A stretch of DNA of 34,132 nt from assembly GCF_006861665.1 (NCBI RefSeq), contig NZ_RKLU01000005.1, positions 111,145-145,276 of the forward strand. The letters are read 5' to 3'. This document shows positions 1,166 to 30,152 of this stretch, piece after piece (position 1 is the stretch's first letter; each line of letters opens with the position of its first letter). This DNA is from Halonotius terrestris. Lineage in GTDB: Archaea > Halobacteriota > Halobacteria > Halobacteriales > Haloferacaceae. The position numbers were made by a program, and so were the translations under genes. The notes under the pieces are model-generated. The model did not search any database, was not told the DNA's origin, and saw only the letters and a list, made by a program, of their open reading frames with translations.

Positions 1166-2295
1166 TGCACACCTGCCTGCGGCGGTGCCTCGCGGTCGGC
1201 AGGCTCCGCGCCGACGTGATACGATCGACCGTCCGGCGATCGGAATAGCTCCTGCCAGTAGCGCACCATGTGGGTGCCCCACTGCACGTCGACCGCCGGG
1301 AGCGACTCGCCGAGGGCGTGTTTGACGCCGAGATACGGCATGTTCGCGCCCGCGCCGACGCACATGATGATCGTCCCCGAGACGCGGGGGTTGATTTCGA
1401 TGACTTTCGGCTCGCCGTCGGCGTCGTATTTGAACTGGATGTTGATATTGTACTCTAAGCCGAGCTGCTGGCTGATTTCCGTGGCAGCCGCAATGAGGTC
1501 CTCGCGGCGTTCGACGGTGCCCTCGAAGGAGATGCCGGCCCGCGTTCGCGTTCTGGAGCGCGGGATCACCGGGCCGACGTCCTCGCCCATCGCCAACACG
1601 TCAACGCTGTACTCCTCGCCGGGCAGGTATTCCATGACCGCCAACTCGGGAAACTCCTCGGCCGACGCGAGGATCGGCCGCATCTCGTCAAGCGTCGTCA
1701 CCGCGGTATCGGGTTTCGACTCCAGTAGTCGGGTCAGGCGATCAGTGCTTTCGTCCAGCACCCGAAAGCCGCGCATCCCGCTTGCGACCGGCGGCTTGAA
1801 ACAGACCGGGTTCTCGGGGTAGCCGAGATCTTCGACGGCTGCGACGAACTCGGCTTCGGTGTCGACGCGGCGGTAGTCAGGCGCGGCCGCGAACCCCTCG
1901 CTGTCGAGGAACTCGTAGAGTTGGCCTTTGTCGTTGGCGACGCCGAGAGCCTCCGTTTCGGAGACCATGACCGTCCCCTTGAAGGCGTCGCGATTGGCCG
2001 CCAGGGGCTCGATCTCGGCGGTCGTCAGCGGCAGAATCACGTCGGCGTCGACGTGGTCGGCGATCTCCGCTAACCGCGGGACGAACGCCTCGTCGTCGCC
2101 AGCCGGTACTGTCGCGTGCTCGTCGACGAGCGCGAAGCCGTAGGCCTCGCTGTCCATGTCGACGCCGACGATGTGGAACTCACGTTCATCGGTCGTTCGG
2201 AGACTGCGGATGATCCCCGACGCACCCGGCGCGCCGGCACCCGTGATGAGGACTGTGCAATCGGTATCACCCGATCCCGCTGTGTGGTGGCTCAT
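1162..2295 (-). CDS. ATP-grasp ligase, carbamoyl-phosphate-synthase-like
   Basis: A 377-residue ATP-grasp enzyme. The N-terminal pre-ATP-grasp domain starts with a dinucleotide-like glycine motif (LITGAGAPGASGIIRSL, about residues 15-31). A central ATP-binding region follows, with VCFKPPVASGMRGFRVL as the lysine/glycine-loop segment and YLPGEEYSVDVLAMG as the second nucleotide-binding strand. The metal-binding signature is IEINPRVSGTI (Glu and Asn). This family ligates a carboxylate to an amine, thiol or phosphate through an acyl-phosphate. The gene lies between a GT2 glycosyltransferase and a HAD phosphatase with 4-bp overlaps on both sides, so a role in decorating a glycan or its precursor is inferred. 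The exact substrates are unknown. A second ATP-grasp protein is encoded at 12675-13871. Confidence 0.87.
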   Translation of the reverse strand: MSHHTAGSGDTDCTVLITGAGAPGASGIIRSLRTTDEREFHIVGVDMDSEAYGFALVDEHATVPAGDDEAFVPRLAEIADHVDADVILPLTTAEIEPLAANRDAFKGTVMVSETEALGVANDKGQLYEFLDSEGFAAAPDYRRVDTEAEFVAAVEDLGYPENPVCFKPPVASGMRGFRVLDESTDRLTRLLESKPDTAVTTLDEMRPILASAEEFPELAVMEYLPGEEYSVDVLAMGEDVGPVIPRSRTRTRAGISFEGTVERREDLIAAATEISQQLGLEYNINIQFKYDADGEPKVIEINPRVSGTIIMCVGAGANMPYLGVKHALGESLPAVDVQWGTHMVRYWQELFRSPDGRSYHVGAEPADREAPPQAGVQ

Positions 2296-4999: not shown

Positions 5000-6094
5000 T
5001 CATGCCCGGAGCTGGGTCACCGCACCGCGGGTCGCCTCAACGATCCGATCGAGCTCCGTCTCGGTCAGGTTGGGATGCACCGGCAGCGACAACACCTCGT
5101 CGGCGGCCGCTTCCGCGACCGGCGCGTCAGCGTCGTACCCGTCGTAGGCGGCCAGTTCGTGGATCGGCGTCGGATAATACACCCCCGAATCGACGCCGTT
5201 GTCAGCGAGGTGCGCTTGCAGCCGCTCGCGGTCGGGCACGCGAACCGTGTACTGGTGATAGGCGTGTTCAACCCCGTCGGGAGCGTTGGGGGTAGTGAGC
5301 CCATCGATATCGCTCAGTTCGTCAGTCAACCGCTGGGCGTTGGCGCGACGGCTGGCGACCCACTCGGGCAGGCGGTCGAGTTGGACGCGGCCGATGGCGG
5401 CCGCGAGACTCGTCATCCGGAAGTTGTGGCCCACGCGCTCGTGGGCGTAGCCGCCGTCGCTACCGCGGCCGTGATTGCAGAAACTCGCCGCCCGATCGGC
5501 GACTGCTTCGCGGTCGGTGAGGATCATCCCACCTTCACCGGTCGTCATGTTCTTCGTCGGGTAAAACGAGAAGGCCGCGGCATCGCCGAACGTGCCGACC
5601 GCGTCGCCGTCGACGGTCGCCCCGTGGGCTTGGGCGGCGTCCTCAACGAGCGGTATCCCTGCGTCGTCGGCAATGTCGCGGAGTGCGGCGACGTCAGCAG
5701 GCAGTCCGTAGAGATGCACCGCCAGTATCGCGTCGGCGTCGGCCTTGCGGACGGCACGCTCGGTCGCGGCCGGATCGAGATTGTACGTCTCGGGGTCGAT
5801 ATCGGCGAAGACCGGCCGCGCGCCGGCCAGCCGGATCGCGTTCGCGCTGGCGACGAACGACAGCGGCGTCGTGACGACGCGGTCGCCCGCGCCGATGTCG
5901 AGGGCTTCCAGCGCGGCGTGCAGCGCGGTCGTCCCGTTGGAGGTGGCGACGGCGTGGCCGGCCCCGCAGTAGTCGGCGAACTCCGCCTCGAACGCTCTGA
6001 CTTCGGGGCCGTCGGCGACCATCCCGCTTTCGAGTACGTCGTCGACGGCGTCGATCTCGTCGGGGCCGAACGTTGGGTTTGCGAGCGGGATCAT
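5000..6094 (-). CDS. DegT/DnrJ/EryC1/StrS-family sugar aminotransferase (WbpE-like)
   Basis: A 364-residue PLP-dependent aminotransferase of the usual length. It starts IPLANPTFGPDEIDAV, typical of nucleotide-sugar aminotransferases. It has the phosphate-binding SNGTTALHA (about 52-60), the PLP-ring motif EDAAQAHG with Asp152 and Gln155, and the Schiff-base lysine Lys181 in FSFYPTKN followed by TGEGGM. The active site therefore looks complete. The ATG overlaps the acetyltransferase stop by 4 bp. Aminotransferase plus hexapeptide acetyltransferase is the standard pair that makes an N-acetylated amino sugar nucleotide. With the Gfo/Idh/MocA dehydrogenase and the WbpA-like dehydrogenase elsewhere in the window, a 3-keto to 3-amino uronic-acid step is the best guess. 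Confidence 0.92.
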   Translation of the reverse strand: MIPLANPTFGPDEIDAVDDVLESGMVADGPEVRAFEAEFADYCGAGHAVATSNGTTALHAALEALDIGAGDRVVTTPLSFVASANAIRLAGARPVFADIDPETYNLDPAATERAVRKADADAILAVHLYGLPADVAALRDIADDAGIPLVEDAAQAHGATVDGDAVGTFGDAAAFSFYPTKNMTTGEGGMILTDREAVADRAASFCNHGRGSDGGYAHERVGHNFRMTSLAAAIGRVQLDRLPEWVASRRANAQRLTDELSDIDGLTTPNAPDGVEHAYHQYTVRVPDRERLQAHLADNGVDSGVYYPTPIHELAAYDGYDADAPVAEAAADEVLSLPVHPNLTETELDRIVEATRGAVTQLRA

Positions 6095-6675
6095 GCGATG
6101 ACGTTCTCTCCCTTGAGCTCCTCCGGCAGCGGGCGGTGGTTCGCGGGGACGCCCATCGCCAACATCCCCGGCGGCACGTCCTCGCTGACGACCGCGCCCG
6201 CGGCGATAAACGCGTTCTCACCGACGGTAACGCCCGGGAGGATCGTCGCGTTCGCGCCGACGGAGACGCCGTCCCGTAGCGTCGGCCCCTCAAGATCCTC
6301 GTCACGCCGAAGCGGATAGGGGTCGTTCGTCAGCACGGCGTTCGGCCCACAGAAGACGCGATCGCCGAGTTCGGTCTCCGGCGGGACGTAGACGCCGGTC
6401 TGGATGCTGACGTTGTCGCCGACCGTCACCGAGCCATCGAGGACCGATTTCGTCCCGAGAATCACGTCGTCGCCGACGATCGTGTGTTCGCGGACGAGCG
6501 CGTCGTGGCCGGTGGTAAATCCGCGGCCGAGATCAACGTCCGCGTAGATCTTCGTGCCGGATCTGATTCGTGCGTCCGCGCCGATCAACGTCGGGCCAAC
6601 GTCGTCGGCGTACTGGTAGCCGACAGTCGCACCGTCGTCAACCGTCGGGTTCGCGCCGAAGACGACGCGGCTCAT
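6091..6675 (-). CDS. Left-handed beta-helix (hexapeptide) N-acetyltransferase, WbpD-like
   Basis: A 194-residue acyltransferase built of hexapeptide repeats (for example IGADARIRSGTKIYADVDLG and VGDNVSIQTGVYVPPETELG). It has a PNAVLTNDPYPLRR loop, VSVGANATILPGVTVGENAFIAAGAVVSEDVPPG and a GVPANHRP tail. This order, including the Asn-Asp-containing loop, matches sugar N-acetyltransferases such as WlbB/WbpD that acetylate an amino sugar nucleotide with acetyl-CoA as a trimer. I chose the ATG at 6675 because a strong Shine-Dalgarno GAGGTG lies 5 nt before it; a GTG two codons upstream would overlap that site. It is the first gene of the minus-strand block and overlaps the aminotransferase start. 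Confidence 0.9.
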   Translation of the reverse strand: MSRVVFGANPTVDDGATVGYQYADDVGPTLIGADARIRSGTKIYADVDLGRGFTTGHDALVREHTIVGDDVILGTKSVLDGSVTVGDNVSIQTGVYVPPETELGDRVFCGPNAVLTNDPYPLRRDEDLEGPTLRDGVSVGANATILPGVTVGENAFIAAGAVVSEDVPPGMLAMGVPANHRPLPEELKGENVIA

Positions 6676-6767
6676 TCGCACACCTCAACGCCGAGGGGCA
6701 GTCGGCCCCTCGCGCAACCTCGCTCGTCCGGCCACCCGATCCACGCGCTCCGTGTGGCACCAGTAAG

Positions 6768-6967: not shown

Positions 6968-7681
6968 TCAATCGGCTCTGTGGGTCCAAACGAACGCACC
7001 GAGCCCGTAGGCCACAAACACGATAACAAGACAGCCGACGGTCCCGTCGATCACGGGGAGCGGTGTCATCGGATCGACGAGCAGTGCGGTTCCGAGCGCG
7101 GCTGCCCCACCCACCGAAAGGATCGTGGAGTAGCGGTACCAGTCGGGTTCAGCACCCGGGGCCGCGGTTTCGAGGTAGTCGTACACTGCGTCCGTATTGG
7201 CTGCGCGTGCGACGGTCCCGCGGGACTTGTTGAACTCGATAACGTCCATGCTGTCCATCTTCGGGAGGTGACACTGGTAGAGGCCGACATAGACACACTT
7301 GCGCTCGCTGGAGGTGAGCTGTTCGATCGGCTTGTCGTTCTCCAACGCGGCGATCCGCTCGGCGAGATCGCTCAGCGAGAGCTTGTCGTCGGTCTGCTTG
7401 AGCATCCCCAACACGCGGCGACGACGCTCGTTTTTCAGGACAGCGAACACCTGATCCAGCGGCAACGAGGCGTCGGCCATATCGTCCGCTCCCGGTTCGG
7501 CCGCGGAAGCGGCTGTCATCGCAGCCAACGTCTCCGTGTCGTCGGTTGGTTTCGTGATGCTCGTCCATGGGACGACGCTACCGTTCTCACTCGATCCGTC
7601 GGTATCGGCGTCGGTCGCCGCCTGTGCGTCGTGGTCAGTTACTGGTTCCGCCGTGTCGGTGCCCGTCTCACTTTGTGGCAT
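6968..7681 (-). CDS. DUF7344-type winged-helix protein with C-terminal membrane segments
   Basis: A 237-residue protein with three parts. Residues 1-75 are acidic and low in complexity (probably disordered). Residues about 75-170 form a winged helix starting LPLDQVFAVLKNERRRRVLGML and containing LSLSDLAERIAALEND and YVGLYQCHLPKMDSMDVIEFN. Residues about 180-230 form two membrane helices. Proteins of this design are common in haloarchaea and are annotated DUF7344; they are thought to be regulators, but I know of no defined target. It is closely similar to the protein encoded at 8002-8655 and more distantly to that at 9258-9818. The gene stands alone, with its own 5' region. A membrane-tethered DNA-binding regulator is inferred. 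Confidence 0.85.
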   Translation of the reverse strand: MPQSETGTDTAEPVTDHDAQAATDADTDGSSENGSVVPWTSITKPTDDTETLAAMTAASAAEPGADDMADASLPLDQVFAVLKNERRRRVLGMLKQTDDKLSLSDLAERIAALENDKPIEQLTSSERKCVYVGLYQCHLPKMDSMDVIEFNKSRGTVARAANTDAVYDYLETAAPGAEPDWYRYSTILSVGGAAALGTALLVDPMTPLPVIDGTVGCLVIVFVAYGLGAFVWTHRAD

Positions 7682-8001: not shown

Positions 8002-8655
8002 CTATTCCGGAGCCGATGAGTCTTCAGCTTCCGCTCGGCGGGATGTCCAGTGGAGACAGACGGCTCCGTAGGCGGCGAAAGCGACTAACAGGGCGACGAC
8101 GGCGATGTCCATGACCGGAAGCGTCGTCATCGGCTGGGTAAGCAGCGCGCTCCCGAGGCCGGCGACCCCGACCAGCGACAGTCCCATGGAGTAGCGGTGC
8201 CATTCCGGCTCGTCGGGCTCGTCGGCGGTATCGAGATACCGGTACATGATCTCCATGTTGTCACCGAGTTCGATCGTGCCGCGGGGCTTGTTGAAGTTGA
8301 TGACGCCCATGCCGTCCATCTTCGGGAGGTGGCACTGGTAAAGGCCGACATAGACGCGCTTGCGCTCGCCGGAGGTGATCTGTTTGATCGGTTTGTCGTT
8401 CTCCCAGGCGGCGATCTGCTCGGCGAGGTCGCTCAACGAGAGCTGGCCGTCGGCGTCCTGCAGCATCCGCAGCACGCGCCGGCGACGCTGGTTTTTCAGG
8501 ACGCCGAAGACCTGATCTAACGGGAGGGGCGCGTCCTCGGGCTCCGCGTCGGCTGGCTCCTCGGTCGGCATCGACTCGGCAGACGCAGGTGACGAGGGCT
8601 CGGCATTAGCTGGTGACGGTGGTGTTTCAGGGGGCGCGTCACTCGCTTGCGACAT
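8002..8655 (-). CDS. DUF7344-type winged-helix protein with C-terminal membrane segments (paralogue 2)
   Basis: A 217-residue paralogue of the protein encoded at 6968-7681. It has an acidic, Pro/Ala-rich N-terminal region (about 1-50). The winged helix follows (LPLDQVFGVLKNQRRRRVLRML, LSLSDLAEQIAAWENDKPIKQITSG, YVGLYQCHLPKMDGMGVINFN). Two membrane helices (about 160-200) are followed by a charged tail. The start ATG at 8655 is preceded by a clear Shine-Dalgarno GGAGG (8662-8666 complement), so the transcript has a leader, unlike many promoters in this window. The acidic N-terminus differs strongly from its paralogue while the wing and helices are nearly identical. It is probably a membrane-tethered regulator, and its partners are unknown. 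Confidence 0.85.
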   Translation of the reverse strand: MSQASDAPPETPPSPANAEPSSPASAESMPTEEPADAEPEDAPLPLDQVFGVLKNQRRRRVLRMLQDADGQLSLSDLAEQIAAWENDKPIKQITSGERKRVYVGLYQCHLPKMDGMGVINFNKPRGTIELGDNMEIMYRYLDTADEPDEPEWHRYSMGLSLVGVAGLGSALLTQPMTTLPVMDIAVVALLVAFAAYGAVCLHWTSRRAEAEDSSAPE

Positions 8656-9257: not shown

Positions 9258-9818
9258 ATGAGTACTGACGCACCTACACAGGAGCTGTCCCAAGATCTCG
9301 TCTTCGATATCCTCAGTAACACGCGTCGTCGGATGGTGTTGTACTACCTCCGCCGCCATGGCGGCCCGGCCGCAGTCCAGGATATCGCCGAAGAGATCGC
9401 CGCCCTCGAAAACGATGTCGACCCCGAAGAACTGAGTCGCCAACAGCAGAAACGCGTCTACGTCTCGTTGTACCAGACGCACCTGCCGAAGCTCGAAACC
9501 GCCGGCGTCATCGAGTACGACGAGGACGATGGGCGTGTTTCACTCACTGCCCGCGCGATGGACATCGATGGATACCTCACGCCGACGACGACGGCCGACT
9601 ACCCGTGGCAACTCCACTATCTCGTGTTGGCAGTTGCCGGCGGGCTCCTGTTTTCGCTTTCCGCAGTCGGTGTGCCGGTAATCGCGGCGATCCCGACGCT
9701 CGTATTGGGCGTCGGCATCATGCTCGCGTTCGCGGCCTCGGCCGGCGTGCAGTACTGGCGACGCCGCCAGCGAAAGCAGTCGTTGCCGGCGGAGCTGCTG
9801 CGGCATGAGGACGGATGA
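9258..9818 (+). CDS. DUF7344-type winged-helix protein with C-terminal membrane segments (paralogue 3)
   Basis: A 186-residue protein of the same family as its two neighbours but without the long acidic N-terminus. The winged helix begins at once (LSQDLVFDILSNTRRRMVLYYLRRHGG). It continues with VQDIAEEIAALENDVDPEELSRQQQKRVYVSLYQTHLPKLETAGVIEYD. Two membrane helices (about 115-160, with LHYLVLAVAGGLLFSLSAVGV and a second Ala/Val-rich one) are followed by a basic RRRQRKQ tail, suggesting that the tail is cytoplasmic. It is transcribed away from the other two. This short form is close to the version most often seen in haloarchaea, so it may be the parental type. It is inferred to be a membrane-bound regulator. 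Confidence 0.86.
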   Translation: MSTDAPTQELSQDLVFDILSNTRRRMVLYYLRRHGGPAAVQDIAEEIAALENDVDPEELSRQQQKRVYVSLYQTHLPKLETAGVIEYDEDDGRVSLTARAMDIDGYLTPTTTADYPWQLHYLVLAVAGGLLFSLSAVGVPVIAAIPTLVLGVGIMLAFAASAGVQYWRRRQRKQSLPAELLRHEDG

Positions 9819-12674: not shown

Positions 12675-13871
12675 ATGTCTCAGACGGATGCCGACGCGGT
12701 GATCGTGCCGGCTATCGGAACTGGTGGCTCGCTCAGCGTGATTCGATCCCTCGGACGGGCAGGCTATACGACGATCGCCGCCTCCGAAAAGCAGCGACCG
12801 CCATCGTTCAGCTCTCGCTACTGTGACGAGCGGTACCGCGTTCCGTCACCGCAAACTGACCTCGACGGCTACGCCGACGCTCTCCTGACGCTCGCTGCCA
12901 ACGACGATGTCGGCACCATCGTCCCAGTACGGGAACCCGATGTCTATGTCCTCGCCCAACGCCGCGATGAGTTCGCCGAGCACGTCGGCGTCCTCTGGCC
13001 GACCGCCGACGGCCTGAACAAAATTCACGACCGAAAACGGCTGTTCGCCGCCGCCGAGGACGCTGGCGTGACGGTGCCCGAAACGATCCCACTGGACGAG
13101 GTCGAGGACTGGGATCGAGAGCGGATCGTCAAAGGGCGACACGCGATCCTTACCGCTGAGACTTCCGAGTCGGTGCCAGAGGGCGAGTTCCGATCACCAC
13201 CGAAAACGATTTTCCTCGAACCGGGCGAGGAGCCCGATGTCGAGGCGATCATCGACTCGATGGATCATATCCCGATCACGCAGGCCTACGTCGCTGGCAC
13301 GGAGTACTGTTTCCGCGGGCTCTACGACGACGGCGAGGCCGTCGTCACCTCCCAGAAGAAGCTGGTTCGCGGCTACAAGTACTGTCGTGGGCCGAGTATC
13401 TACCACGAAGCCGTCGACGAGCCGGCACTCGAAAAAGCGGGCCGCGCGCTGTTGGACGAACTCGACTACACCGGGATGGCCTCGGTCGGCTTCATCCGCG
13501 ATGCCGACGGCGAGTTCAACCTCCTGGAGATCAATCCTCGAATCCCCTCCAGCCTGCCGATGGATATCCACGCGGGCCTCGATTATCCCGAGTACTTCTG
13601 GGAACTCGCTACCGAAGGCGAGGTCACCGCAGAACAGGATTACCAACCTGGGACAGCGAGTCACTTGCTTCGGGGTGAGGCCGTCCATCTCCACAGCGTC
13701 CTCCGCGAGGAGTATCCGCTCACTCCTCGGCCATCGGGAACGAAAACGACGTGGAACATCGTCCGTTCGCTCGTCGAACAGCCGCAGTTTGATTATCTCA
13801 GCCTCGACGATCCCGCGCCGTTCCTCCGCGATATGGCGAACGCCGGCCGGTCGATGGTGTCGTTGCTCTGA
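12675..13871 (+). CDS. ATP-grasp ligase, carbamoyl-phosphate-synthase-like (second copy)
   Basis: A 398-residue ATP-grasp enzyme distinct from the one at 1162-2295. The N-terminal domain starts AVIVPAIGTGGSLSVIRSLGRAGYTTIAASEKQRPPSF. It has VPETIPLDEVED and VKGRHAIL (nucleotide-binding lysine region), then ITQAYVAGTEYCFRGLYDDGE. The metal-binding motif is LLEINPRIPSSLPM, with Glu and Asn. The family joins a carboxylate to an amine through an acyl-phosphate. Upstream is the flippase and downstream an SDR, each with its own promoter. Its place in a glycan locus suggests it attaches an amino acid or carboxylate to a sugar or lipid carrier, but the substrates are unknown. Signature residues look intact. 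Confidence 0.88.
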   Translation: MSQTDADAVIVPAIGTGGSLSVIRSLGRAGYTTIAASEKQRPPSFSSRYCDERYRVPSPQTDLDGYADALLTLAANDDVGTIVPVREPDVYVLAQRRDEFAEHVGVLWPTADGLNKIHDRKRLFAAAEDAGVTVPETIPLDEVEDWDRERIVKGRHAILTAETSESVPEGEFRSPPKTIFLEPGEEPDVEAIIDSMDHIPITQAYVAGTEYCFRGLYDDGEAVVTSQKKLVRGYKYCRGPSIYHEAVDEPALEKAGRALLDELDYTGMASVGFIRDADGEFNLLEINPRIPSSLPMDIHAGLDYPEYFWELATEGEVTAEQDYQPGTASHLLRGEAVHLHSVLREEYPLTPRPSGTKTTWNIVRSLVEQPQFDYLSLDDPAPFLRDMANAGRSMVSLL

Positions 13872-16365: not shown

Positions 16366-17457
16366 TCAGTCCTGCTGCGCTGTCGATTCCGTTGACCCGT
16401 CGGTCGATGCTGTTTGCTTCTCCGTATCCAACGGCGATCCCTGTAGCACGCGGCCAGTCGCAACGACTTCGATAGCCGACAACGGGTACGCCGAGGCCGG
16501 TCGCGGCGACCGTGTGAGCCCTTCGGCCACGCCGCCGATAGCGAGGGTCTTGGTAGCCAGGAAGTCAACTGCGCCCATCGGTCCGCGCTTGGTTGCAATC
16601 ATGACGAAGCCGATAGCCGAGAGCACCACCCACCCGAGCAGCAGTTGGGTGAACACCAGCGACAGCGCGCCGGCTGCGAACCACGCGACCAGAGCGAGTT
16701 TGAATCGCTGGCGACGAAGCAACAGCCGCAGGACCGCGGGCTCGCCGAGCCACTTCCGGATCGTCTGGCCGGGCGCGACGTAGTAGCCTTGTCGCCACCG
16801 TCGCAGCGGCTCAGGAATCTCGGAATCAACGTCGTGGGTCGCCGAGACCTCAGGTAGCCGCACCAGCCGGTTGCCGGCGGTCGTCAGCTGGAAGCCGACA
16901 TCAACGTCCTCGTAGCCCTGCAGCCAGGGATCGAAACCGCTGATGGCAGCGAGTGCCTCGGCGTCGTAGAGGGTAACGCCGCCGATCTTATCGACCTCCA
17001 TAACGCCGGTTTGCGTGGACTCGTCGAGACAGCCTTCGACGCCGACAGTATCCGCGTTGTTTCGGAGGTAGTCGATTGCCCGTGGGAGCCACTCGTCAGT
17101 CAGCGTCATATCGCCGTCGACGTGGAGCACCAACTCACCGCGAGCGACCTGGTCGCCGACGAACCGGCCCGCACCGCAGGAAACGGTGTGTTCCTCGGGA
17201 ATCCGGAGGATGGTCACCGGATACTCGCGTGCGCGTTCGACTGTCCGATCGGTCGACGCCGAGTCCACGAGGATCACCTCGAAAGCAGACACGCCGCGAC
17301 AGGCCGCGAACACGCTCTCGATGCAGGCTTCGATCTGCTCCTCCTCGTTTTCGGTGATGATGACGACCGACAGCGGGAGCTGTCCCTTTTCGGCTGGCGT
17401 CGTCGGATCAACGACCCAGTCCAATGCGGTTTCGGGTGTCGCTTCGTCATCGGTCAT
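16366..17457 (-). CDS. Family 2 glycosyltransferase with C-terminal membrane segments
   Basis: A 363-residue GT2 transferase. An acidic N-terminus (1-28) precedes the GT-A domain: LSVVIITENEEEQIEACIESVF, LVDSASTDRTVERA, an ELVLHVDGDMTLTDEWL metal-binding DGD motif and LQGYEDVDVGFQL (ED motif that often positions the acceptor). Two hydrophobic helices near residues 250-290 anchor it, and a polar tail follows. This resembles haloarchaeal AglE/AglG-type enzymes that add sugars to a dolichol-linked glycan. Its start overlaps the end of the exported beta-helix gene by 11 bp, so those two are probably cotranscribed, which is an unusual pairing. Confidence 0.88.
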   Translation of the reverse strand: MTDDEATPETALDWVVDPTTPAEKGQLPLSVVIITENEEEQIEACIESVFAACRGVSAFEVILVDSASTDRTVERAREYPVTILRIPEEHTVSCGAGRFVGDQVARGELVLHVDGDMTLTDEWLPRAIDYLRNNADTVGVEGCLDESTQTGVMEVDKIGGVTLYDAEALAAISGFDPWLQGYEDVDVGFQLTTAGNRLVRLPEVSATHDVDSEIPEPLRRWRQGYYVAPGQTIRKWLGEPAVLRLLLRRQRFKLALVAWFAAGALSLVFTQLLLGWVVLSAIGFVMIATKRGPMGAVDFLATKTLAIGGVAEGLTRSPRPASAYPLSAIEVVATGRVLQGSPLDTEKQTASTDGSTESTAQQD

Positions 17458-18868
17458 CGTTGCCCCCTGGTGGGAAGTCCGACTCGGTCGCTGCCAACTC
17501 CTTGATCTCCTCGGTGCCGTCGGGGGTGACGAGCGTGGTGTTCTCGATCCGGACGGTCGAGTTCTGCAGTACGAGCGGGTAGTTCGTTACGTCGATCCGA
17601 GAGTCGATGATCCGGCAGTCCGACGAATCCCGGAAGTGGATGCCGTTGCGGTTCTCGCCCGACTGGCTGATGGTACAGTTCCGAAAGACCGTTTCGTCGC
17701 GGTCCGCCAGCAACACGGCCCGCCCACCGGCTGCACCCCCCGTAATCTCGACGTTTTCGACTGTCGGTGTCTCGGGGTTGTCCGTACTGCGGGGAAACAG
17801 CCGGATCGCCGGCGTCTCGTCGCGGTCGATGTCGATCCGCGTTTCCCGTACCGTCGCGCCGCCGTTGGTTTCGTGGAAGACGATCCCGCCGTGGGTGAAC
17901 CGCGAGTCGTCGGTAATTCGGACCGTACAATCCTCGATCAGTTGGCCGTGGCCGCTTCGGAGGCGGAAACCGCGAGCGTTGGCGGTGACCTCGCCATCCG
18001 ACGGCGGCGGTGAGTCGCTGATCGAGGTGACGCCGCGGGCGACCGAGCCAGCCGAGCCGAGCCGGACGTTGGCGACGTTGTTGTTGCGGTAGGTGCCGCC
18101 CTCGACGTGGACGATGCCGCCCTCGCCGTCCGGTAGTCCGGGAGCGGATGCGTACAGGCCGTTGTCGGTGAATCCTTGAATCGTACAGTTCCGAAAAACG
18201 ACATCGCCTGCGTGCTGTTTCCCAACATAGATTCCGGTCAGCCACGAGTCGGAGCTGTGGTTGTCGAGTCGAAGCCTCTGGGCGACGGCTGTCGCCGACT
18301 CCTCGACGACATCGAGGCGGAACAGCGCGACCTGATCGTCACACTGCCCGGAGGCGCGGACGTTGGTGATAGTCGCGTCGCCGTCGGCAGTGATCCTGAC
18401 GATGCCGCCGGTCGAATCGCCGGTAAAATCGAAGGCGACGCTGTCCATGAGGAAGCCATCGACGTTCTTAACGTGCAGATAGGAGCTGCCGCCGCCGACG
18501 CAGTTGCCCGCTTCGGCGACGAACGTCGGCTTGGCACCTCTCGCGCCGGCGATACCGAACCGGCTGTAGTCGGCCAGCGTGATCGGCTGGAGTCGGTAGG
18601 TGCCGTCGGGAAACGACAGCAGCGTGTCGTCGCCGGCGTACTCTTCCAGCACTCCGTTGATCGGCTCCCCGCCGTCGGGATCGGCCCCGACCGCGACGGC
18701 GTCGACGACGGTGCCGAACTCGTCTGCGTGTGGGACATCCACGGACTCGGGCGTCTCCGTCGTCGCCCCGGATTCCTTCTCGTCCAACACAGCCACCCCA
18801 ATGCCAGCGATTCCGAGGCCGCCGGCGACGCCGGCCCCGATCAACAGCTCTCGACGCTCCAGATCCAT
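17447..18868 (-). CDS. Tat-exported right-handed beta-helix protein
   Basis: A 473-residue protein with an N-terminal twin-arginine signal (ERRELLIGAGVAGGLGIAGIGVAV), then a short Thr/Glu-rich linker. A long series of beta-helix coils follows (GDVVFRNCTIQGFTDNGLYAS, GGIVHVEGGTYRNNNVANVRL, GQLIEDCTVRITDDSRFTHGG, NCTISQSGENRNGIHFRDSSDCRIIDSRID). The parallel beta-helix fold is shared by pectate-lyase-like enzymes, glycan hydrolases and adhesins. No definite catalytic motif stands out. It lies directly upstream of a GT2 gene, suggesting an extracellular role on the glycan made here. A leaderless promoter (ATAACAAA, about 31 bp before the ATG) precedes it. Confidence 0.87.
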   Translation of the reverse strand: MDLERRELLIGAGVAGGLGIAGIGVAVLDEKESGATTETPESVDVPHADEFGTVVDAVAVGADPDGGEPINGVLEEYAGDDTLLSFPDGTYRLQPITLADYSRFGIAGARGAKPTFVAEAGNCVGGGSSYLHVKNVDGFLMDSVAFDFTGDSTGGIVRITADGDATITNVRASGQCDDQVALFRLDVVEESATAVAQRLRLDNHSSDSWLTGIYVGKQHAGDVVFRNCTIQGFTDNGLYASAPGLPDGEGGIVHVEGGTYRNNNVANVRLGSAGSVARGVTSISDSPPPSDGEVTANARGFRLRSGHGQLIEDCTVRITDDSRFTHGGIVFHETNGGATVRETRIDIDRDETPAIRLFPRSTDNPETPTVENVEITGGAAGGRAVLLADRDETVFRNCTISQSGENRNGIHFRDSSDCRIIDSRIDVTNYPLVLQNSTVRIENTTLVTPDGTEEIKELAATESDFPPGGNDDR

Positions 18869-18942: not shown

Positions 18943-21315
18943 TTAGGTCCGCCAGCCGTCGTAGCCCGGAATGATGTCGGAGTACGAGACGTTCGCGTCC
19001 TCGCCGTAGGCGTTGTCGCTGAACGAGACGTTCGTCCACTCGGAGACGTTCTCTTGGACGATGGTCTGGCCGCCAACGTCCGGTTCGCCGTCCGGATCGG
19101 GCGCGTTGTCGTTGAAGAACCAGTTGTCGTGGATCGTGGCGACATCGTCGGGGACGCCGCGGACATCGACCGAGTGATTCAGGTTATCGTCCCACTCTCG
19201 GCGGATGGTTTCGACCACGTTGTTGTGGATCTCGTAGCGGTCGCCGGCCGGGTCGTGGGCGTCGATGTTGTGCATCACCTCGGTCGGCCCGAAGTGGTTG
19301 TAACGGCAGATGTAGCCCGGGTTGTCGCCCGAAGTCGCCACCGAGTGGCGGTTGTAGTTGAAGTAGTTGTACTCGATAACCGGCGTGCCGGAATTGGCCG
19401 CGACGCCGTAGCCGAGCCCGCTTTTGTTGCACTCTCGGATCACGTTGTGATGGATGTGGGCACCGTCGCCCTCGTCCACGTCGATGCCGGAGTAGGCAAA
19501 GCCCCAGATATCGCAGTTATCCACTTCGCACGCGCCGCGGAGCTGCACGCCGTGGGCGTAATCGCCGCTCCAGTCGTCGCCGGGGTGAGGTCCCTCGACG
19601 CGAAGGCCGGTCAGCCGCGCGTCGCCGCGCAGCCGGAGCAGTTCGCCGGGCTCGTAGTCGGTGTGCAGCCGCCCGCCGGCCGCGCCGTCGATCCCGCGGT
19701 CGGAGGCCAGCGTTACGCCGTCGTCGATCTCGTAGGTGCGGTCGCCGAGTTCGATGCTCGTCCCGCCAGCAACGTAGACGATGTCGCCGGCACTCGCTGC
19801 CGACAGCCCGTCGACGAATTCGCTATGCGTCCGCACGACGATATCGGCCGCCGACTGCGAAACAGTGTTGGCGTAGCCGGTGCCGCCGCCGACTGTCCCG
19901 TCGCCGCTTGTTTCGGTCGTGGTGCCGTCGCTATCGTCCTGCCACGGGAAGCCGCCTTTCCAGCCGTCGCCCGTCGCGTTCGGGCGTGGATACCAGTCGA
20001 GATCGGAGTCCTTGCCGTTGACCGTTGCATCGGCCTTACCGTCGACAGTCACGTCAAGCAGACCGGTGTCGAAGGCGTAGGCGTGGGTATCGCCCGCCTG
20101 GACGCGGCCGGCGGCCTTCGTCCCGTTGTCGCCGATCCAGAAGAACTCGTATTCGATCACCGACTCGTCGACCGTCGACGGGATGATCGCGCCGCCGTCT
20201 TTGACTTCGATGTAGTAATCGACGTACTCCTCGCCGGTCGCCTCGATGGAGTACCAGTGTTTCCGTGTCTCGCCGTCGATCTGCCACGGGAAGTAGCCCT
20301 TCCAGTGGTCGCCGGTCGCGCCCGGCTGTGGGTAGTAGTCGAGATCAGAGGGATTGCCGTCGACCGTTGCCGCGGCCTCGCCCTCGATTGTCACGTCGAG
20401 AACGAGGGTATCGAAGGCGTAAGCGTGGGTGTCGCCCGCGTGGACACGACCTGCTGCCTTCGTTTTGTCGTCGTTGAGCCAGTAGAAGTCGGATTCGATG
20501 ATCGCATCGTCGACTGTCGAGGCGACCATCTCGCCGCCGTCCTCGACTTCGATGTAGTAATCGACGTAGGAATCACCGGTCGCTTCGACGGAGTACCAGT
20601 GTTCGCGGTCGACGGTGTCGGCCTTCTGCCTGGTGAGTTCGGTGACAGTCGTTTCTTCGCCGTTGAGGAACAGCGTGAAATCGCCCGTTACTGGATCGAT
20701 GCTCTTTATCGCGCCGGCGAAATCGTAGGTGTCGCCGCTTCCGGTCGCAGTCGAGCCGTCGACCAGCCAGCCGTCGCTGGTCTCGGTGATGCTGTCGGTA
20801 TCGTCGGCGGATCGATCGCCGTTGTCCAGCACCTTGGTGACGGCTTCCGGACTCGTGATCTCGTAGTCGATGGTCGCGTCACTGCCGGCGACGATTTCGA
20901 GGCGATCCACGTCCGCCGTGCCGTCGTCACCGTACAGCAGCGTGACTTCGGCCATGTTGCCCACATCGAGGGCTTGCAGGCTCTCGCTGAATTTGTAGGC
21001 GTGGGTGTCCGTCGTCACCGACCCGGTTACGGAGCCGTCGGTTTCGGTGACTGTTTCGTTCGAGCCGATGTCCGGGTGGACGGCCACGGAGCCGGAGACC
21101 TGAAACTCGTAGGATGCGGTTACCGGCGAGCCGCTGCCGTCGATGATGATGCTGTGCGGCAGCTCACTTGAGCCGGACGTGACGCCGGCTGCACCCGCTG
21201 TCCCGGCGGCGAGGCCGACGCCGCTGATCTGCAGTAGTCGTCGCCGACTGACGCCAGTGGTAATGTTGTTGTGCTCGGAGCCGTCGTCGGTAGGCTGGTC
21301 GTTCCGGTGCGCCAT
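18943..21315 (-). CDS. Large Tat-exported protein: tandem repeat modules plus beta-helix domain
   Basis: A 790-residue secreted protein. The Tat signal is SRRRLLQISGVGLAAGTAG (about 23-42). An N-terminal beta-rich module (PHSIIIDGSGSPVTASYEF...THAYKFSESLQALDV) is followed by two near-identical 114-residue modules (236-349 and 350-462), each with HWYS-EATG, YVDYYIEV-DGG, THAYAFDT and ending FPWQ. A Gly/Thr linker leads to a right-handed beta-helix (about 490-790) with many H/N-rich coils (HIHHNVIRECNKSG, YNYFNYNRHS, EIHNNVVETI). I chose the ATG at 21315 because a textbook TATA box is 26 bp before it. Likely an extracellular polysaccharide lyase, hydrolase or binding protein; no catalytic residues are certain. 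Confidence 0.88.
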   Translation of the reverse strand: MAHRNDQPTDDGSEHNNITTGVSRRRLLQISGVGLAAGTAGAAGVTSGSSELPHSIIIDGSGSPVTASYEFQVSGSVAVHPDIGSNETVTETDGSVTGSVTTDTHAYKFSESLQALDVGNMAEVTLLYGDDGTADVDRLEIVAGSDATIDYEITSPEAVTKVLDNGDRSADDTDSITETSDGWLVDGSTATGSGDTYDFAGAIKSIDPVTGDFTLFLNGEETTVTELTRQKADTVDREHWYSVEATGDSYVDYYIEVEDGGEMVASTVDDAIIESDFYWLNDDKTKAAGRVHAGDTHAYAFDTLVLDVTIEGEAAATVDGNPSDLDYYPQPGATGDHWKGYFPWQIDGETRKHWYSIEATGEEYVDYYIEVKDGGAIIPSTVDESVIEYEFFWIGDNGTKAAGRVQAGDTHAYAFDTGLLDVTVDGKADATVNGKDSDLDWYPRPNATGDGWKGGFPWQDDSDGTTTETSGDGTVGGGTGYANTVSQSAADIVVRTHSEFVDGLSAASAGDIVYVAGGTSIELGDRTYEIDDGVTLASDRGIDGAAGGRLHTDYEPGELLRLRGDARLTGLRVEGPHPGDDWSGDYAHGVQLRGACEVDNCDIWGFAYSGIDVDEGDGAHIHHNVIRECNKSGLGYGVAANSGTPVIEYNYFNYNRHSVATSGDNPGYICRYNHFGPTEVMHNIDAHDPAGDRYEIHNNVVETIRREWDDNLNHSVDVRGVPDDVATIHDNWFFNDNAPDPDGEPDVGGQTIVQENVSEWTNVSFSDNAYGEDANVSYSDIIPGYDGWRT
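19930..20610 (-). repeat. Tandem 342-bp duplication inside the large exported protein gene
   Basis: Units 20269-20610 and 19930-20268 are offset by exactly 342 bp (114 codons) and remain alike at DNA level (for example GTACCAGTGTT at the same phase). They encode repeated modules, probably carbohydrate-binding-like beta domains. Confidence 0.8.
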
Positions 21316-21334
21316 GAACCGGTAAGATCCGGTT

Positions 21335-21346
21335 ACTTTTATAGAT
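21335..21346 (-). promoter_or_regulatory. Strong leaderless promoter of the large exported protein
   Basis: The minus strand reads ATCTATAAAAGT, centred 26 bp before the ATG at 21315, the clearest TATA box in the window. A short inverted repeat (CCGGATCTTACCGG) lies between it and the ATG and could be an operator. Confidence 0.75.
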
Positions 21347-21596
21347 ATTTTTACAGGATAGCCGCCGGATACTGGCGGGAACGATTCCGCTGGCGGCGAC
21401 GATGCCAAAAGATACGGACAGCTTACTATCCACATGTCTTCGTCGCTCCGTGACACGCAAATCCCGCCGTAACCACCGAATACCACCGGTAAGCTGTTCC
21501 TACCGGCCGATATCGGACAGTACACGGCCAGCCCACACCAGAACCGAGAATCTCGCCCGCACCACGATTCTATCAAATACTATACTATTTACGACC
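21347..21596. other. Divergent intergenic region between the exported protein and the DUF354 gene
   Basis: No gene is convincing. An A+T-rich stretch at 21571-21592 contains TATACTATTTA, a possible TATA box directed toward the 21645/21710 starts. Confidence 0.45.
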
Positions 21597-25068: not shown

Positions 25069-25356
25069 CGCTGCCCTCCCATTGCTCGGTACTGCGGTGG
25101 ATCACCGTTCTCAGCAGCGGCTCGTGAGTTGGGAGGCAGTGTCCAGACACCAGACGGCAAACCGACGAACGAAGCGGGATTCACACCTTCGACGACCACG
25201 GCTGCGGGGTTTAGTATAGAGTCGCTACGGGCAGGTGGTGTCTCTCTCCCGAGTTAGCCATCAACGCTACACACCTCGTTGCGCTCGATCGGTGCCGGCC
25301 GTTTGAAGCGTCCAGTTATCGCCGCATATTCCGGTTTTGGCATCCACAATTCCACC
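25069..25356. other. Divergent intergenic region upstream of the WbpA-like gene
   Basis: No gene is visible. On the minus strand it holds the Shine-Dalgarno (complement of 25073-25080) and a TATA-like CTATACTAAACC at about 25209-25220 serving the WbpA-like gene. It ends at the palindrome before the 25403 gene. Confidence 0.5.
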
Positions 25357-25402: not shown

Positions 25403-26692
25403 ATGCAGTCGGACACTTCATCGTTCGTTCAGCGAGTCCGTCGTCGCGTTCGCCAGACGAGCCAAGAGAGCCAGTCACCACGGCGACACCGTCGGTTCAG
25501 ACGCCTGCCGCCCGCGATCACACCGATCACGGCGCGCGATCTCGTTGCCGGCATCGCAGGGTACCGCCGCGGTACCGGCCGCGAAGCGTTCCAGCGCGAG
25601 ATCGGCTCGACGCTCGGTGCAGATTCAACGGCGACCTACACCTCCTTCAGGCGCGCACTCGGTGCCTGTCTGGGGACGATGGCCGAGGCTGCCCGCGGTG
25701 ACGAGACGGATATCCTGATTCCGGCGTTCTGTAGCTCGGATTACCCCGATGCCATCGAAGGTGCTGGACTGACAGCCAGTCGCTACGACATCGATCCCGA
25801 GTCGCTGTCACTGGATATGGATTCGCTGGCGGCACTCCCGACCGAGAACGCGCTGGCAGTCGTCGTCATCAACGTCTTGGGCTACGGCTCGGAGATGGAC
25901 CGGATCGCGGCCTACTGCCGGGAGCACGATATCTATCTGATCGAAGCACTGGGCTACGCCTACGGCGCGTCCTACGACAGCGACCACCTCGGCACGTTCG
26001 GCGACTGCTCAGTGCTGAATTTCCAGCAGGGCAAGCCGATCCCGATCGGCGGCGGGATGGTCGTCTCCCGGAACTCCGAGCTACAATTCAGTGACGAGGG
26101 ACGGCCGGCGGTCGACCCGAACATCGGAACGATGGCCGGCTACGCGGCCCTGTCGCATCCGCGACCCTATGCCTGCTACTCGTTGGCGACCCGCTGGCTG
26201 GAGAAACTGGACGCAGCACCCGAGGACGTTAGCACACATCCGGAATCCAAGTTCGGCGTCCCCTACGAGCCGCCGTTTGCGACGCTGTCGAATTTTCACG
26301 GTACAGTCGGCCGGCGCGTCCTCGATCACCTCCCCGAGCATCGACGCCAGCGGGCGGAGACAGCGGAGGTGTACGCTACAGAGTTAGCCGACTGCCCGCA
26401 CGTGCGACAGCTTCAGCCCGTCGCGGGGCTTTCGAACCACCAGCACGTCAGATACCCGCTCGTCGTTGACGACATTGAGATCCGAGCCGAAATTCGGGAC
26501 GGGCTGGCGGCCGTCGGCGTCGAAACGGCCGTCCTCTACGACTGGCCGCCGCTGTCGGCTGACGAGTTTCCCGGCGCGGCACAGCTCCAAGACGAGATTG
26601 TTACGCTCCCGACGCATCCCTACGTCGATGCGGCTGATCGCCAGCTGATCGTTGACACCGTTCGTGATATCGCAGTATCGGTCGGTGGCTGA
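25403..26692 (+). CDS. Atypical DegT/DnrJ-fold aminotransferase-like protein
   Basis: A 429-residue DegT-fold protein. An Arg-rich N-terminal extension (1-35) precedes the large domain: FRRALGACLGTMAEA, ILIPAFCSSDYPDAIE, VVINVLGYGSEMDRI, then IEALGYAYGAS at 180-190 and LNFQQGKPIPIGGGMVV with Lys211 in the Schiff-base position. In ordinary members the first motif is EDAAQAHG; here the PLP-ring Asp is Ala182 and the Gln is Tyr185, although the Lys remains. The small domain (SNFHGTVGRRVLDHLPEHR onward) is normal. It may be an altered PLP enzyme or a non-catalytic paralogue. The ATG at 25403 was chosen over an upstream in-frame start. It is monocistronic, with a palindrome at its promoter. Confidence 0.83.
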   Translation: MQSDTSSFVQRVRRRVRQTSQESQSPRRHRRFRRLPPAITPITARDLVAGIAGYRRGTGREAFQREIGSTLGADSTATYTSFRRALGACLGTMAEAARGDETDILIPAFCSSDYPDAIEGAGLTASRYDIDPESLSLDMDSLAALPTENALAVVVINVLGYGSEMDRIAAYCREHDIYLIEALGYAYGASYDSDHLGTFGDCSVLNFQQGKPIPIGGGMVVSRNSELQFSDEGRPAVDPNIGTMAGYAALSHPRPYACYSLATRWLEKLDAAPEDVSTHPESKFGVPYEPPFATLSNFHGTVGRRVLDHLPEHRRQRAETAEVYATELADCPHVRQLQPVAGLSNHQHVRYPLVVDDIEIRAEIRDGLAAVGVETAVLYDWPPLSADEFPGAAQLQDEIVTLPTHPYVDAADRQLIVDTVRDIAVSVGG

Positions 26693-27762: not shown

Positions 27763-28749
27763 ATGAGTGATCGACCTCCCGCCACCGACACACTCGCGGC
27801 CGGCGTCATCGGCGTCGGCTCGATGGGCCGCCACCACGCACGCGTCTACAGCGAGCTCCCCGACGTGGAACTCGTCGGCGTCACCGACGTCGATACCGCC
27901 GCCGCCGAATCGGTCGCCGCGGAGTACGGTACGCAGGCGATGAGCCGCGAGGAACTCCTCGCCGCCGCCGACATCGTCTCGATCGCGGTCCCGACGCCGT
28001 ACCACTACGAGACCGCGGTCGCCTGCATCGACAACGACGTTGACATCCTCATCGAGAAACCGTTCGTCGAGAAACTCGACCAGGGACGGGACCTCGCCGA
28101 ACGCGCACGCGAGGCCGGCGTCACCTTGCAGGTCGGCCACATCGAGCGGTTCAACCCCGCGACGAGCGTCCTCAGCGAGATCGTTCCGGACCTCGATATC
28201 GTCGCTATCGACATCGACCGCCTCGGCCCGCCGGTCGACCGCGGCGGCGACGACAGCGTTGTGATGGACCTGATGATCCACGACATCGACATCCTCCTCT
28301 CGCTGGTCGATGGCGACATCGACTCGATGTCGGCCGCCGCCCGCGATGAAGGCCACGCGAACGTCCAGTTCGAGTTCGACGACGGAGCTATCGCGTCGCT
28401 GACTGCCAGTCGGCTCACTCAACAGAAGGTCCGCCAGCTCTCGGTCACGGCGGAATCCTGCCGGGTGAACGTCGACTTCATCAGCCAGACCGTCGAGATC
28501 CACCGCCACTCGATGCCGGAATACATCGAGTCCAACGGCGACATCCGATTCCGCCACGAGAGCGTCGTCGAACGCCCCATCGTCGACAACGGCGAACCGC
28601 TGAAGGCCGAACTCGCGGCGTTCGTCACCTCCGCCCGCGAGGGTAGCGAGCCGGTCGTCACCGCCGAAGACGGGCTTCGCGTCCTGGCGGTCGCAAACGA
28701 GATCGAGGCCCTGACCGAGCCGACCGAACGGATGGTGCCCCAGCAATGA
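27763..28749 (+). CDS. Gfo/Idh/MocA oxidoreductase (WbpB/WlbA-like)
   Basis: A 328-residue NAD(P)-dependent dehydrogenase. Its nucleotide-binding motif is AGVIGVGSMGRHHARVYSEL (from residue 13), and the conserved EKP motif is IEKPFVEKL (Lys99). It continues with VGHIERFNPA and the C-terminal alpha/beta domain VMDLMIHDIDILLSLVDG, which carries the catalytic His. HIERFNPA and MDLMIHDID are seen in UDP-GlcNAcA 3-dehydrogenases of the WbpB/WlbA class. Its stop overlaps the start of the nucleotide-sugar dehydrogenase by 4 bp, so the pair is coupled. Likely reaction: oxidation of C3 of a UDP-uronic acid before amination by the DegT aminotransferase at 5000-6094. Confidence 0.9.
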   Translation: MSDRPPATDTLAAGVIGVGSMGRHHARVYSELPDVELVGVTDVDTAAAESVAAEYGTQAMSREELLAAADIVSIAVPTPYHYETAVACIDNDVDILIEKPFVEKLDQGRDLAERAREAGVTLQVGHIERFNPATSVLSEIVPDLDIVAIDIDRLGPPVDRGGDDSVVMDLMIHDIDILLSLVDGDIDSMSAAARDEGHANVQFEFDDGAIASLTASRLTQQKVRQLSVTAESCRVNVDFISQTVEIHRHSMPEYIESNGDIRFRHESVVERPIVDNGEPLKAELAAFVTSAREGSEPVVTAEDGLRVLAVANEIEALTEPTERMVPQQ

Positions 28750-30152
28750 GCCAGCAACTCGATCACGGCGCGGGCCTCTACGGCACGGAGCTATCGGAGC
28801 CCGCCCAACGCGAGGCGTTTACCAACGGCGACGTACCGGTCGCCGTCTACGGCCTCGGGAAGATGGGTCTCCCGCTGGCGGCGGTCTACGCCGACGTTTC
28901 CGGCAACACCATCGGCGTCGACATCGACGAGGAAGTCGTCGAGACGGTCAATCGCGGCGAGTGCCACGTCAAACGCGAACCCGGCCTCGCGGACCTCGTC
29001 AGCGAGACGGTCGCCGACGGTTCGCTACGAGCGACAACGGACGCGACAGCCGCCGCTGCGGACGCGGCAGTACACGTCCTGATGGTCCCGACGCTGCTGA
29101 CCGACGAGCAGGAACCGGATCTGTCGATCCTGACGGCTGCCGTCGAGTCAATCGGCGCGGGCCTCTCGCCGGGCGATCTCGTGATCGTCGAATCGACGGT
29201 CCCGCCGCGAACGACTGTCGACCACGTCGTCCCGCGGCTGGCCGAGGTCAGCGGGCTCGACCCGGACGAATTCGGCGTCGCCGCCTGCCCCGAGCGAACC
29301 GTCAGCGGCGAAGCACTCCAAGATATTCGCGGTACGCACCCGAAGGTTGTCGGCGGTGTCGACAGCGAGAGCGGTCGTGTCGCCGCCTTGCTCTACGGCG
29401 AACTCAGCGACAACGAAATCATCGAAACCTCGGATGCGACGATCGCGGAGGCCGTCAAGGTCTTCGAGGGCGTCTACCGCGACGTGAACATCGCCCTGGC
29501 GAACCAGTTGGCGACGTACGCTGAGGCGATGGACGCCGACGTGACCGAGGCGATCGACGTTGCCAACACCCAGCCGTTCTGTGAGATCCACGACCCTGGC
29601 CCGGGTGTCGGCGGCCACTGTATCCCCGTCTACCCGTACTTCCTCACCGGCGCGTTCGATGTCGACGACGACCTGCTGCCGACCGCCCGCGCGGTAAACG
29701 ACGGGATGGCCGACTACACGGTGTCGATGCTGGAGGCGATCCTCGCGGCTCACGGTGTCGATCGCGACGATCCGACGGTCCTCCTCCTTGGCCTGACCTA
29801 CAAAGCCAACATCGAGGAACTGCGGAACGCGCCGTCGCTGCCGATTGCCAGCCACCTCCGAGAGACGGGTGTGAAAGTCCTCGGCGTCGATCCGATGATC
29901 GACAGCGACGACTGGGGCGACCTCGACGACATCGAGCGTGTCGATCTCGCCGACGCGACGGCACAGCAGGCCGACGCCGTCGTCGTCGTGACACCACACG
30001 AAGAGTTCGCGGCCCTCGATTGGGATGCCTTCGACGCGCCGATCCTCGACGGCCGCGGCTCGATCGACGCCGACGCTACCGACGCGCCGATTTACCGAAT
30101 CGGCGGCGTCTGGCCGAACGTCCCTGCCGACCACGGGAGCAACCATGAGTAA
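28746..30152 (+). CDS. Nucleotide-sugar dehydrogenase (WecC/UDP-ManNAc dehydrogenase-like)
   Basis: A 468-residue dehydrogenase with a 30-residue N-terminal extension. The NAD motif is VAVYGLGKMGLPLA (33-46). ESTVPPRTTVDHV and ACPERTVSG precede the catalytic Cys291 in PFCEIHDPGPGVGGHCIPVYPYF. The PGVGGHCIPV form with IHDPGPG is typical of WecC-like UDP-ManNAc dehydrogenases and distinct from the WbpA-like enzyme at 23761. Two dehydrogenases of different subtype suggest two uronic acids. Its stop TAA overlaps the following small gene by 8 bp, and it overlaps the Gfo/Idh/MocA gene. UDP-glucose cannot be excluded as the substrate. Confidence 0.92.
   Translation: MSQQLDHGAGLYGTELSEPAQREAFTNGDVPVAVYGLGKMGLPLAAVYADVSGNTIGVDIDEEVVETVNRGECHVKREPGLADLVSETVADGSLRATTDATAAAADAAVHVLMVPTLLTDEQEPDLSILTAAVESIGAGLSPGDLVIVESTVPPRTTVDHVVPRLAEVSGLDPDEFGVAACPERTVSGEALQDIRGTHPKVVGGVDSESGRVAALLYGELSDNEIIETSDATIAEAVKVFEGVYRDVNIALANQLATYAEAMDADVTEAIDVANTQPFCEIHDPGPGVGGHCIPVYPYFLTGAFDVDDDLLPTARAVNDGMADYTVSMLEAILAAHGVDRDDPTVLLLGLTYKANIEELRNAPSLPIASHLRETGVKVLGVDPMIDSDDWGDLDDIERVDLADATAQQADAVVVVTPHEEFAALDWDAFDAPILDGRGSIDADATDAPIYRIGGVWPNVPADHGSNHE

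Follow-up and report, generated by a model that had tools for sequence, protein, structure and literature searches.

A haloarchaeal clade of DegT-fold proteins that keeps the Schiff-base lysine without the ring aspartate

A gene of the haloarchaeon Halonotius terrestris (genome of 2.84 Mb) encodes a 429-residue DegT-fold protein that has lost the Asp residue serving the pyridine nitrogen of PLP and has kept the Lys residue that ordinarily forms the Schiff base with this cofactor. The gene occupies positions 25403-26692 (plus strand) of the stretch of DNA analyzed herein, which is 34,132 nucleotides long and is called the window. Because the rebuilt pocket and the Lys are common to a whole clade, these proteins probably have a different job in the building of cell-surface polysaccharides. 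The explanation that we favor, although our confidence in it is tentative and falls a little short of even, is that of a lineage-specific DegT-fold enzyme that acts on a sugar nucleotide via Lys211, is no longer a PLP transaminase, and operates within a haloarchaeal surface-polysaccharide island.

The protein and its clade

The open reading frame at 25403-26692 matches the DegT_DnrJ_EryC1 profile (PF01041) with 121 bits (cut-off 19.8; E 7e-35), and this match together with a fold type I architecture places the protein in the DegT/DnrJ/EryC1/StrS superfamily. No NCBIfam model scored above its cut-off against the protein. An upstream TTG at 25337 would extend the product by 22 residues. The final structural model, built from a 28-sequence alignment, has a pLDDT of 91.2 and a pTM of 0.89, with all five models alike; it replaced an earlier model from a shallower alignment that was unstable across its five versions. 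The top Foldseek matches to this model are all DegT-type aminotransferases (E ~1e-23), and the best PDB matches are TlmJ, GDP-perosamine synthase, AtmS13, WbpE, and similar enzymes. Thus, the predicted model shows the fold to be intact at high confidence.

Two features distinguish the chain from those of ordinary DegT proteins. The first is a clade-specific insertion of ~45 residues (residues ~235-290, encoded at 26105-26272, plus strand) that is missing from ordinary DegTs in our alignments. It follows the strand after Lys211, includes several conserved residues, and is modeled as two helices (residues 241-250 and 253-268). The second is the Arg-rich N-terminal extension recognized in an earlier sequence-only reading of this DNA, which indeed has 11 Arg residues among residues 1-37 (25403-25513, plus strand). 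Residues 1-25 mostly have pLDDT values below 50, and most of the Arg-rich tail is predicted to be disordered. An Arg cluster directly N-terminal of the PPAxTP motif is also present in relatives, among which the length of the tail varies. A tail of this kind contrasts with the usually acidic nature of haloarchaeal proteins.

The sequence-only reading had also reported that Asp is replaced by Ala182 and Gln by Tyr185 with retention of Lys211, and these residues are seen in the translation in the motifs EALGYAYG (Ala182, Tyr185) and FQQGKPIPIGGG (Lys211). Their codons are at 25946-25948, 25955-25957, and 26033-26035, respectively, all on the plus strand. The reading likewise gave the intact motif of the DegT gene at 5000-6094 correctly, as EDAAQAHG (Asp152, Gln155); that protein also carries SFYPTKNMTTGEGG, which includes its Lys181.

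Among 293 genomes of the order, we obtained eight strong matches (E <1e-110), including the one from the window itself, after which the next matches are generic DegTs at ~1e-20. Searches of the order, class, phylum, GTDB contigs, and plasmids together gave a set of 15 distinct sequences, all from Halobacteria. The relatives are 46-73% identical, and the nearest relative of the window protein is from Halonotius roseus. In the phylogenetic tree, the 15 members are separated from the rest by a branch with an SH-aLRT value of 99 and a long stem (1.2 changes per column), which bears out the suggestion that homologues with Ala and Tyr at these sites might constitute a clade. The alternative that the window holds one mutated copy among homologues with the ordinary motif is ruled out, as all 15 members carry the change. 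GTDB contigs searched with strict motifs and the phylum draw revealed no members outside Halobacteria, and the plasmid search found only one plasmid-borne member, in Haloarcula. A viral or phage origin was considered and set aside: the IMG/VR search returned no relative, and among phages there was only a partial, generic match of 27% in a 2.6-kb Salmonella record.

Another divergent DegT (L071, genome G253) has the Asp residue along with an unusual phosphate loop, FGRATTGLAL, and the sequence FNDKKPIDAGHGG. Its branch adjoins the clade described here, and because this branch is long, the placement is unsure. A database record labels one member of the clade as an aminotransferase, and automatic labels of this type risk being misleading.

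A rebuilt cofactor pocket

We compared the 15 clade sequences with 37 ordinary haloarchaeal DegTs, assigning pocket contacts by alignment to the ordinary proteins and by what is generally known of DegT structures. The ring-Asp column is Asp in 37/37 ordinary DegTs and is Ala (14 members) or Val (one member) in the clade. Three residues further on, at the column (Asp+3) otherwise held by Gln, His, or Glu, all 15 clade members have Tyr185. The Schiff-base Lys (Lys181 of ordinary DegTs, present in 36 of 37) corresponds to Lys211 and is found in every clade member.

The sequence-only reading had pictured an otherwise normal PLP site that lacks one Asp and one Gln, and this picture does not hold. 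Gly54, Thr55, His127, Asp152, Ser176, Glu187, Asn224, and Arg226, each present in at least 35 of the 37 ordinary DegTs, are all replaced in the clade. The former PLP-phosphate loop (25634-25660, plus strand) reads TYTSFRRAL in place of (S/N)GTxAL, with the Gly-Thr pair gone and Arg83 present in 15/15 members. In place of the Gly-Thr of the phosphate loop, the Ser of the pocket, and the Asn from the partner subunit in ordinary enzymes, the clade has Phe/Tyr82-Arg83, Asn206, and Phe292. The aromatic Phe80 aligns with Ser111, which is invariant in the clade. Structural columns, namely Glu151, Gly130, Gly158, Gly167, Gly170, Phe177, and a Gly pair, are retained. Therefore, the claim that the fold is otherwise complete stands for the fold, albeit with an added insertion, and fails for the PLP site, which is mostly rebuilt.

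Could the missing Asp be supplied from elsewhere, such that the protein is an ordinary PLP aminotransferase whose lost residue is compensated in three dimensions? The retained Lys, the retained fold, and the family context would fit such an enzyme. However, the profile-profile alignment (hhalign) between the clade and ordinary DegTs has no gaps over the motif (probability 100, E 5e-41), and so in sequence no other Asp shifts into the ring position. This alignment and the clade itself rule out an alignment artefact as the source of the missing residue. No acid has been gained near the motif, and the preceding Glu181 is invariant also in ordinary DegTs (37/37), which makes it an ancestral residue rather than a displaced substitute. 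With the remaining cofactor contacts also gone, and with an intact aminotransferase already encoded nearby, we consider compensation to be very improbable.

The replaced positions are not drifting. Nine of 11 former cofactor-site columns are identical in at least 14 of the 15 members, compared with 111 of 377 core columns (hypergeometric p 4e-4), and dN/dS is 0.25-0.26 against three relatives; both values are approximate because the 11 columns were picked from general knowledge of DegT structures and because dS is fairly high (0.76-1.19). As judged from these alignments, the new pocket residues Arg83, Arg84, Ser111, Tyr185, Asn206, Gln208, and Gln209, together with Lys211, are retained under purifying selection. 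Such strong conservation argues against a passive pseudoenzyme. According to a review (PMC9309667), aminotransferases that are catalytically active conserve both the Lys and the Asp, of which the Asp is essential for the aldimine-to-ketimine step. Given that this residue and most of the cofactor site are gone, ordinary transamination is unlikely.

Retention of the Lys and the presence of Tyr at Asp+3 could equally be a sign that PLP is still bound. In such an arrangement, PLP would remain on Lys211 with its ring nitrogen unprotonated, and the enzyme would carry out a reaction that does without a strong quinonoid sink, such as imine exchange, elimination, or epimerisation. Tyr185 would hold the ring oxygen in the manner of class I aminotransferases, and Arg83, Gln209, and Thr294 of the partner subunit would replace the phosphate cup. 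Lys211 is invariant (15/15), and Tyr185 resembles the class I Tyr, with its register extrapolated from a profile alignment with class I enzymes, the last aligned residue of which is 180, two before the Asp column. Class I enzymes have Tyr214 at the ring, class IV enzymes (SerC) have Arg77 and Gln197 at the phosphate, and in classes II and IV a Thr from the partner subunit is at the phosphate (PMC9309667). However, the parallels with SerC are drawn by sequence position and not by superposition. Moreover, the Asp, the phosphate-loop Gly-Thr, Ser176, Asn224, Arg226, and the aromatic Phe80 are all lost, which leaves Lys211 as the only canonical contact. We also considered Asn157 as the counterpart of the class I ring-oxygen Asn and dropped it when profile alignment gave no firm match. 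The two readings are close, and retention of PLP in an altered setting seems to us the more doubtful one; PLP-free chemistry at Lys211 is preferred.

A conserved surface-polysaccharide island

The gene for the Asp-less protein resides in a syntenic surface-polysaccharide island made of fixed gene blocks, which spans 458-30152 in the window. We mapped 11 such loci over ~30-60 kb: the window plus ten others (nine genomes and one Haloarcula plasmid; L036-L042, L080, L113-L126). No published description of this island was found in the papers searched. In 11/11 loci, one block has the same order, which begins with a WbpD-like acyltransferase, the intact DegT, and a YdjM-like membrane protein, and continues with a polysaccharide-deacetylase-like protein (a label that comes from the Haloarcula record), a GT2, ATP-grasp ligase 1, and a HAD protein. 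Separately, 11/11 loci have the gene for the Asp-less protein and then those for a Gfo/Idh oxidoreductase and a nucleotide-sugar dehydrogenase; another GT2, a flippase, and beta-helix proteins that are exported are encoded as well.

Several of these genes resemble members of the WbpA/B/E/D set. The intact WbpE-like DegT aminotransferase (5000-6094, minus strand; PF01041, E 1.9e-124) overlaps the gene for the WbpD-like hexapeptide acyltransferase (6091-6681, minus strand; PF00132, NeuD/PglB/VioB-like), and the two adjoin each other in all 11 loci. The WbpB-like Gfo/Idh oxidoreductase (27763-28749, plus strand) is closest to NF040723, the model for archaeal UDP-GlcNAc 3-dehydrogenase, which it matches with 228 bits, below the cut-off of 450. 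Adjoining it in every locus is the WbpA-like nucleotide-sugar 6-dehydrogenase (28746-30152, plus strand; TIGR03026 above cut-off). With such a set, the islands encode a WbpA/B/E/D-type route to a 2,3-diamino-uronic acid that needs no contribution from the Asp-less protein.

Across the ten other loci, the intact DegT shares 66-81% identity with its counterpart in the window, and its PLP motifs are complete in all loci checked. A view limited to ±10 kb had suggested that the Asp-less protein might be the only aminotransferase of its island, an idea that was dropped because the intact DegT and WbpD are found in every island. As the gene order and motifs show, it is this predicted WbpE-like enzyme beside WbpD, rather than the Asp-less protein, that covers the standard 3-transamination in 11/11 loci. 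In genomes G267 and G131, and similarly in G103, the WbpD, DegT, Gfo/Idh, and dehydrogenase genes occur together where the Asp-less protein is absent, and so the 3-amino-sugar pathway is independent of it.

The co-occurrence of the two DegT proteins in all mapped islands raises the prospect that the Asp-less protein is a catalytically silent partner of the intact one, serving as a pseudo-subunit or regulator, and a heterooligomeric DegT-type aminotransferase does exist (PDB 8y96). However, the intact type is common (198/286 genomes) and is found in many genomes that lack the Asp-less protein, and thus it is independent of such a partner. Furthermore, a mixed dimer would spoil the active site of the intact enzyme because the Asp-less protein has lost the Asn normally supplied by the partner subunit. 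Neither the conserved Lys nor the new pocket is expected of a silent subunit, and we judge this role to be unlikely.

A closer association is seen with ATP-grasp 1 (1162-2295, minus strand; PF15632, carbamoyl-phosphate-synthase-like with a PylC-like N domain) and the HAD-IA phosphatase-like protein paired with it (458-1171 with a provisional start, minus strand; PF13419), whose genes adjoin in 11/11 loci. At a threshold of at least 62% identity, ATP-grasp 1 is present in 7/272 genomes, which are 6/6 of those bearing the Asp-less protein and 1/266 of the others. The single exception is G267, in which ATP-grasp 1 lies elsewhere in the genome with a HAD gene. Because ATP-grasp 1 is rare and almost always accompanies the Asp-less protein, the latter appears to travel with ATP-grasp 1 and HAD. 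This linkage is partly simple co-inheritance of one island, and one close cousin island tests it. In G155 (L131/L135), a near-identical island has the flippase, GT2, beta-helix genes, ATP-grasp 2, Gfo/Idh, dehydrogenase, WbpD, and DegT. The Asp-less protein is absent from it, as are, throughout the stretch that was read, ATP-grasp 1, HAD, and the close deacetylase homologue, and the expected site of the Asp-less gene holds no recognisable remnant. The G155 island therefore amounts to a natural deletion of the Asp-less gene, ATP-grasp 1, and HAD.

Other components of the island are less tightly placed. A second ATP-grasp gene (12675-13871, plus strand) directly adjoins the Asp-less gene in five other loci, and is present, beside it or elsewhere, in six of the 11 loci (including the window) as far as the stretches reach. 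The exported parallel beta-helix protein encoded at 18943-21576 (minus strand; PF13229) is the divergent neighbor of the Asp-less gene in 9/11 loci. It and a second such protein, at 17447-18868, are conserved in the islands and are possibly polysaccharide-modifying epimerases or lyases; relatives of the beta-helix protein occur in 30/279 genomes. The Haloarcula island has a sulfatase-like gene between the two. Three related small proteins (6968-7681, 8002-8655, and 9258-9818) share a winged-helix-like core, LKN.RRR.VL..L, and have hydrophobic ends, and two of them recur near several islands.

Possible function and comparison with known systems

We infer that the Asp-less protein is an enzyme with a sugar nucleotide as its ligand. 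The ligand in the pocket would be anionic, and a plausible candidate, judging by gene neighborhood only, is a 3-keto or uronate UDP-sugar that the WbpB/WbpA-like dehydrogenases encoded nearby would produce. Perhaps Lys211 might act directly on the carbonyl or carboxyl group of this ligand, either by forming a Schiff base or by acid/base catalysis, with no PLP electron sink, and perhaps the modification step might be shared with the ATP-grasp and HAD genes. A more specific version, in which this is a DegT-fold family without PLP whose former Schiff-base Lys itself attacks a sugar nucleotide of the keto or uronate kind in the modification of a haloarchaeal 3-amino-uronic-acid polysaccharide, is one that we regard as rather unlikely as it stands, though worth stating. 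The clade also draws attention to an uncharacterised modification of sugars in the surface polysaccharides of archaea, and its retention of the Lys, loss of the Asp, and rebuilding of the pocket constitute a natural test of the DegT fold beyond standard cofactor geometry.

The open literature on Asp-less or heteromeric DegTs offered nothing useful. Comparisons can be made with characterized members of the fold. TlmJ (PDB 5uid) is the best sequence and fold match, at 23% identity over ~400 columns, but in TlmJ the Asp is retained (VEDSAC) and the Lys loop is of the ordinary type. WbpE and Pcryo_0616 (PDB 3nu7 and 8e75), which are DegT-family UDP-3-keto-GlcNAcA 3-aminotransferases, agree with the Asp-less protein in fold, in Lys position, and in a context of WbpA/B/D homologues. 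In contrast to them, the Asp-less protein is devoid of the ring Asp, the phosphate loop, the Ser, and the partner-subunit Asn, it has the ~45-residue insertion, and the WbpE role in its island is held by the intact DegT at 5000-6094. The heterooligomeric enzyme from Serratia sp. ATCC 39006 matches in fold and indicates that mixed DegT oligomers are possible. However, the Serratia enzyme keeps the Asp (EDASHAHS), and the link of the Asp-less protein with an intact DegT is one of co-location.

A further comparison is with ColD and E1 (PDB 2gms and 3bb8), the PMP-dependent sugar 3-dehydratases in which the Schiff-base Lys is replaced by His and the Asp is kept. The sequence-only reading had proposed either a changed reaction, perhaps dehydratase-like, or a non-catalytic role. 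That ordinary transamination has been abandoned seems very likely, and the strong conservation of the new pocket lowers the odds of a purely non-catalytic role. With Lys rather than His present in 15/15 members, nothing points to a ColD-type dehydratase. A haloarchaeal DegT with His at the Schiff-base Lys column (SFFFSHHISTIEGG), like the ColD/E1-type 3-dehydratases, does occur elsewhere (L030, genome G149). In ColD and E1 the DegT fold serves another reaction, as it probably does in the clade described here, and with respect to the two residues the clade is their reverse, with the Lys kept and the Asp lost.
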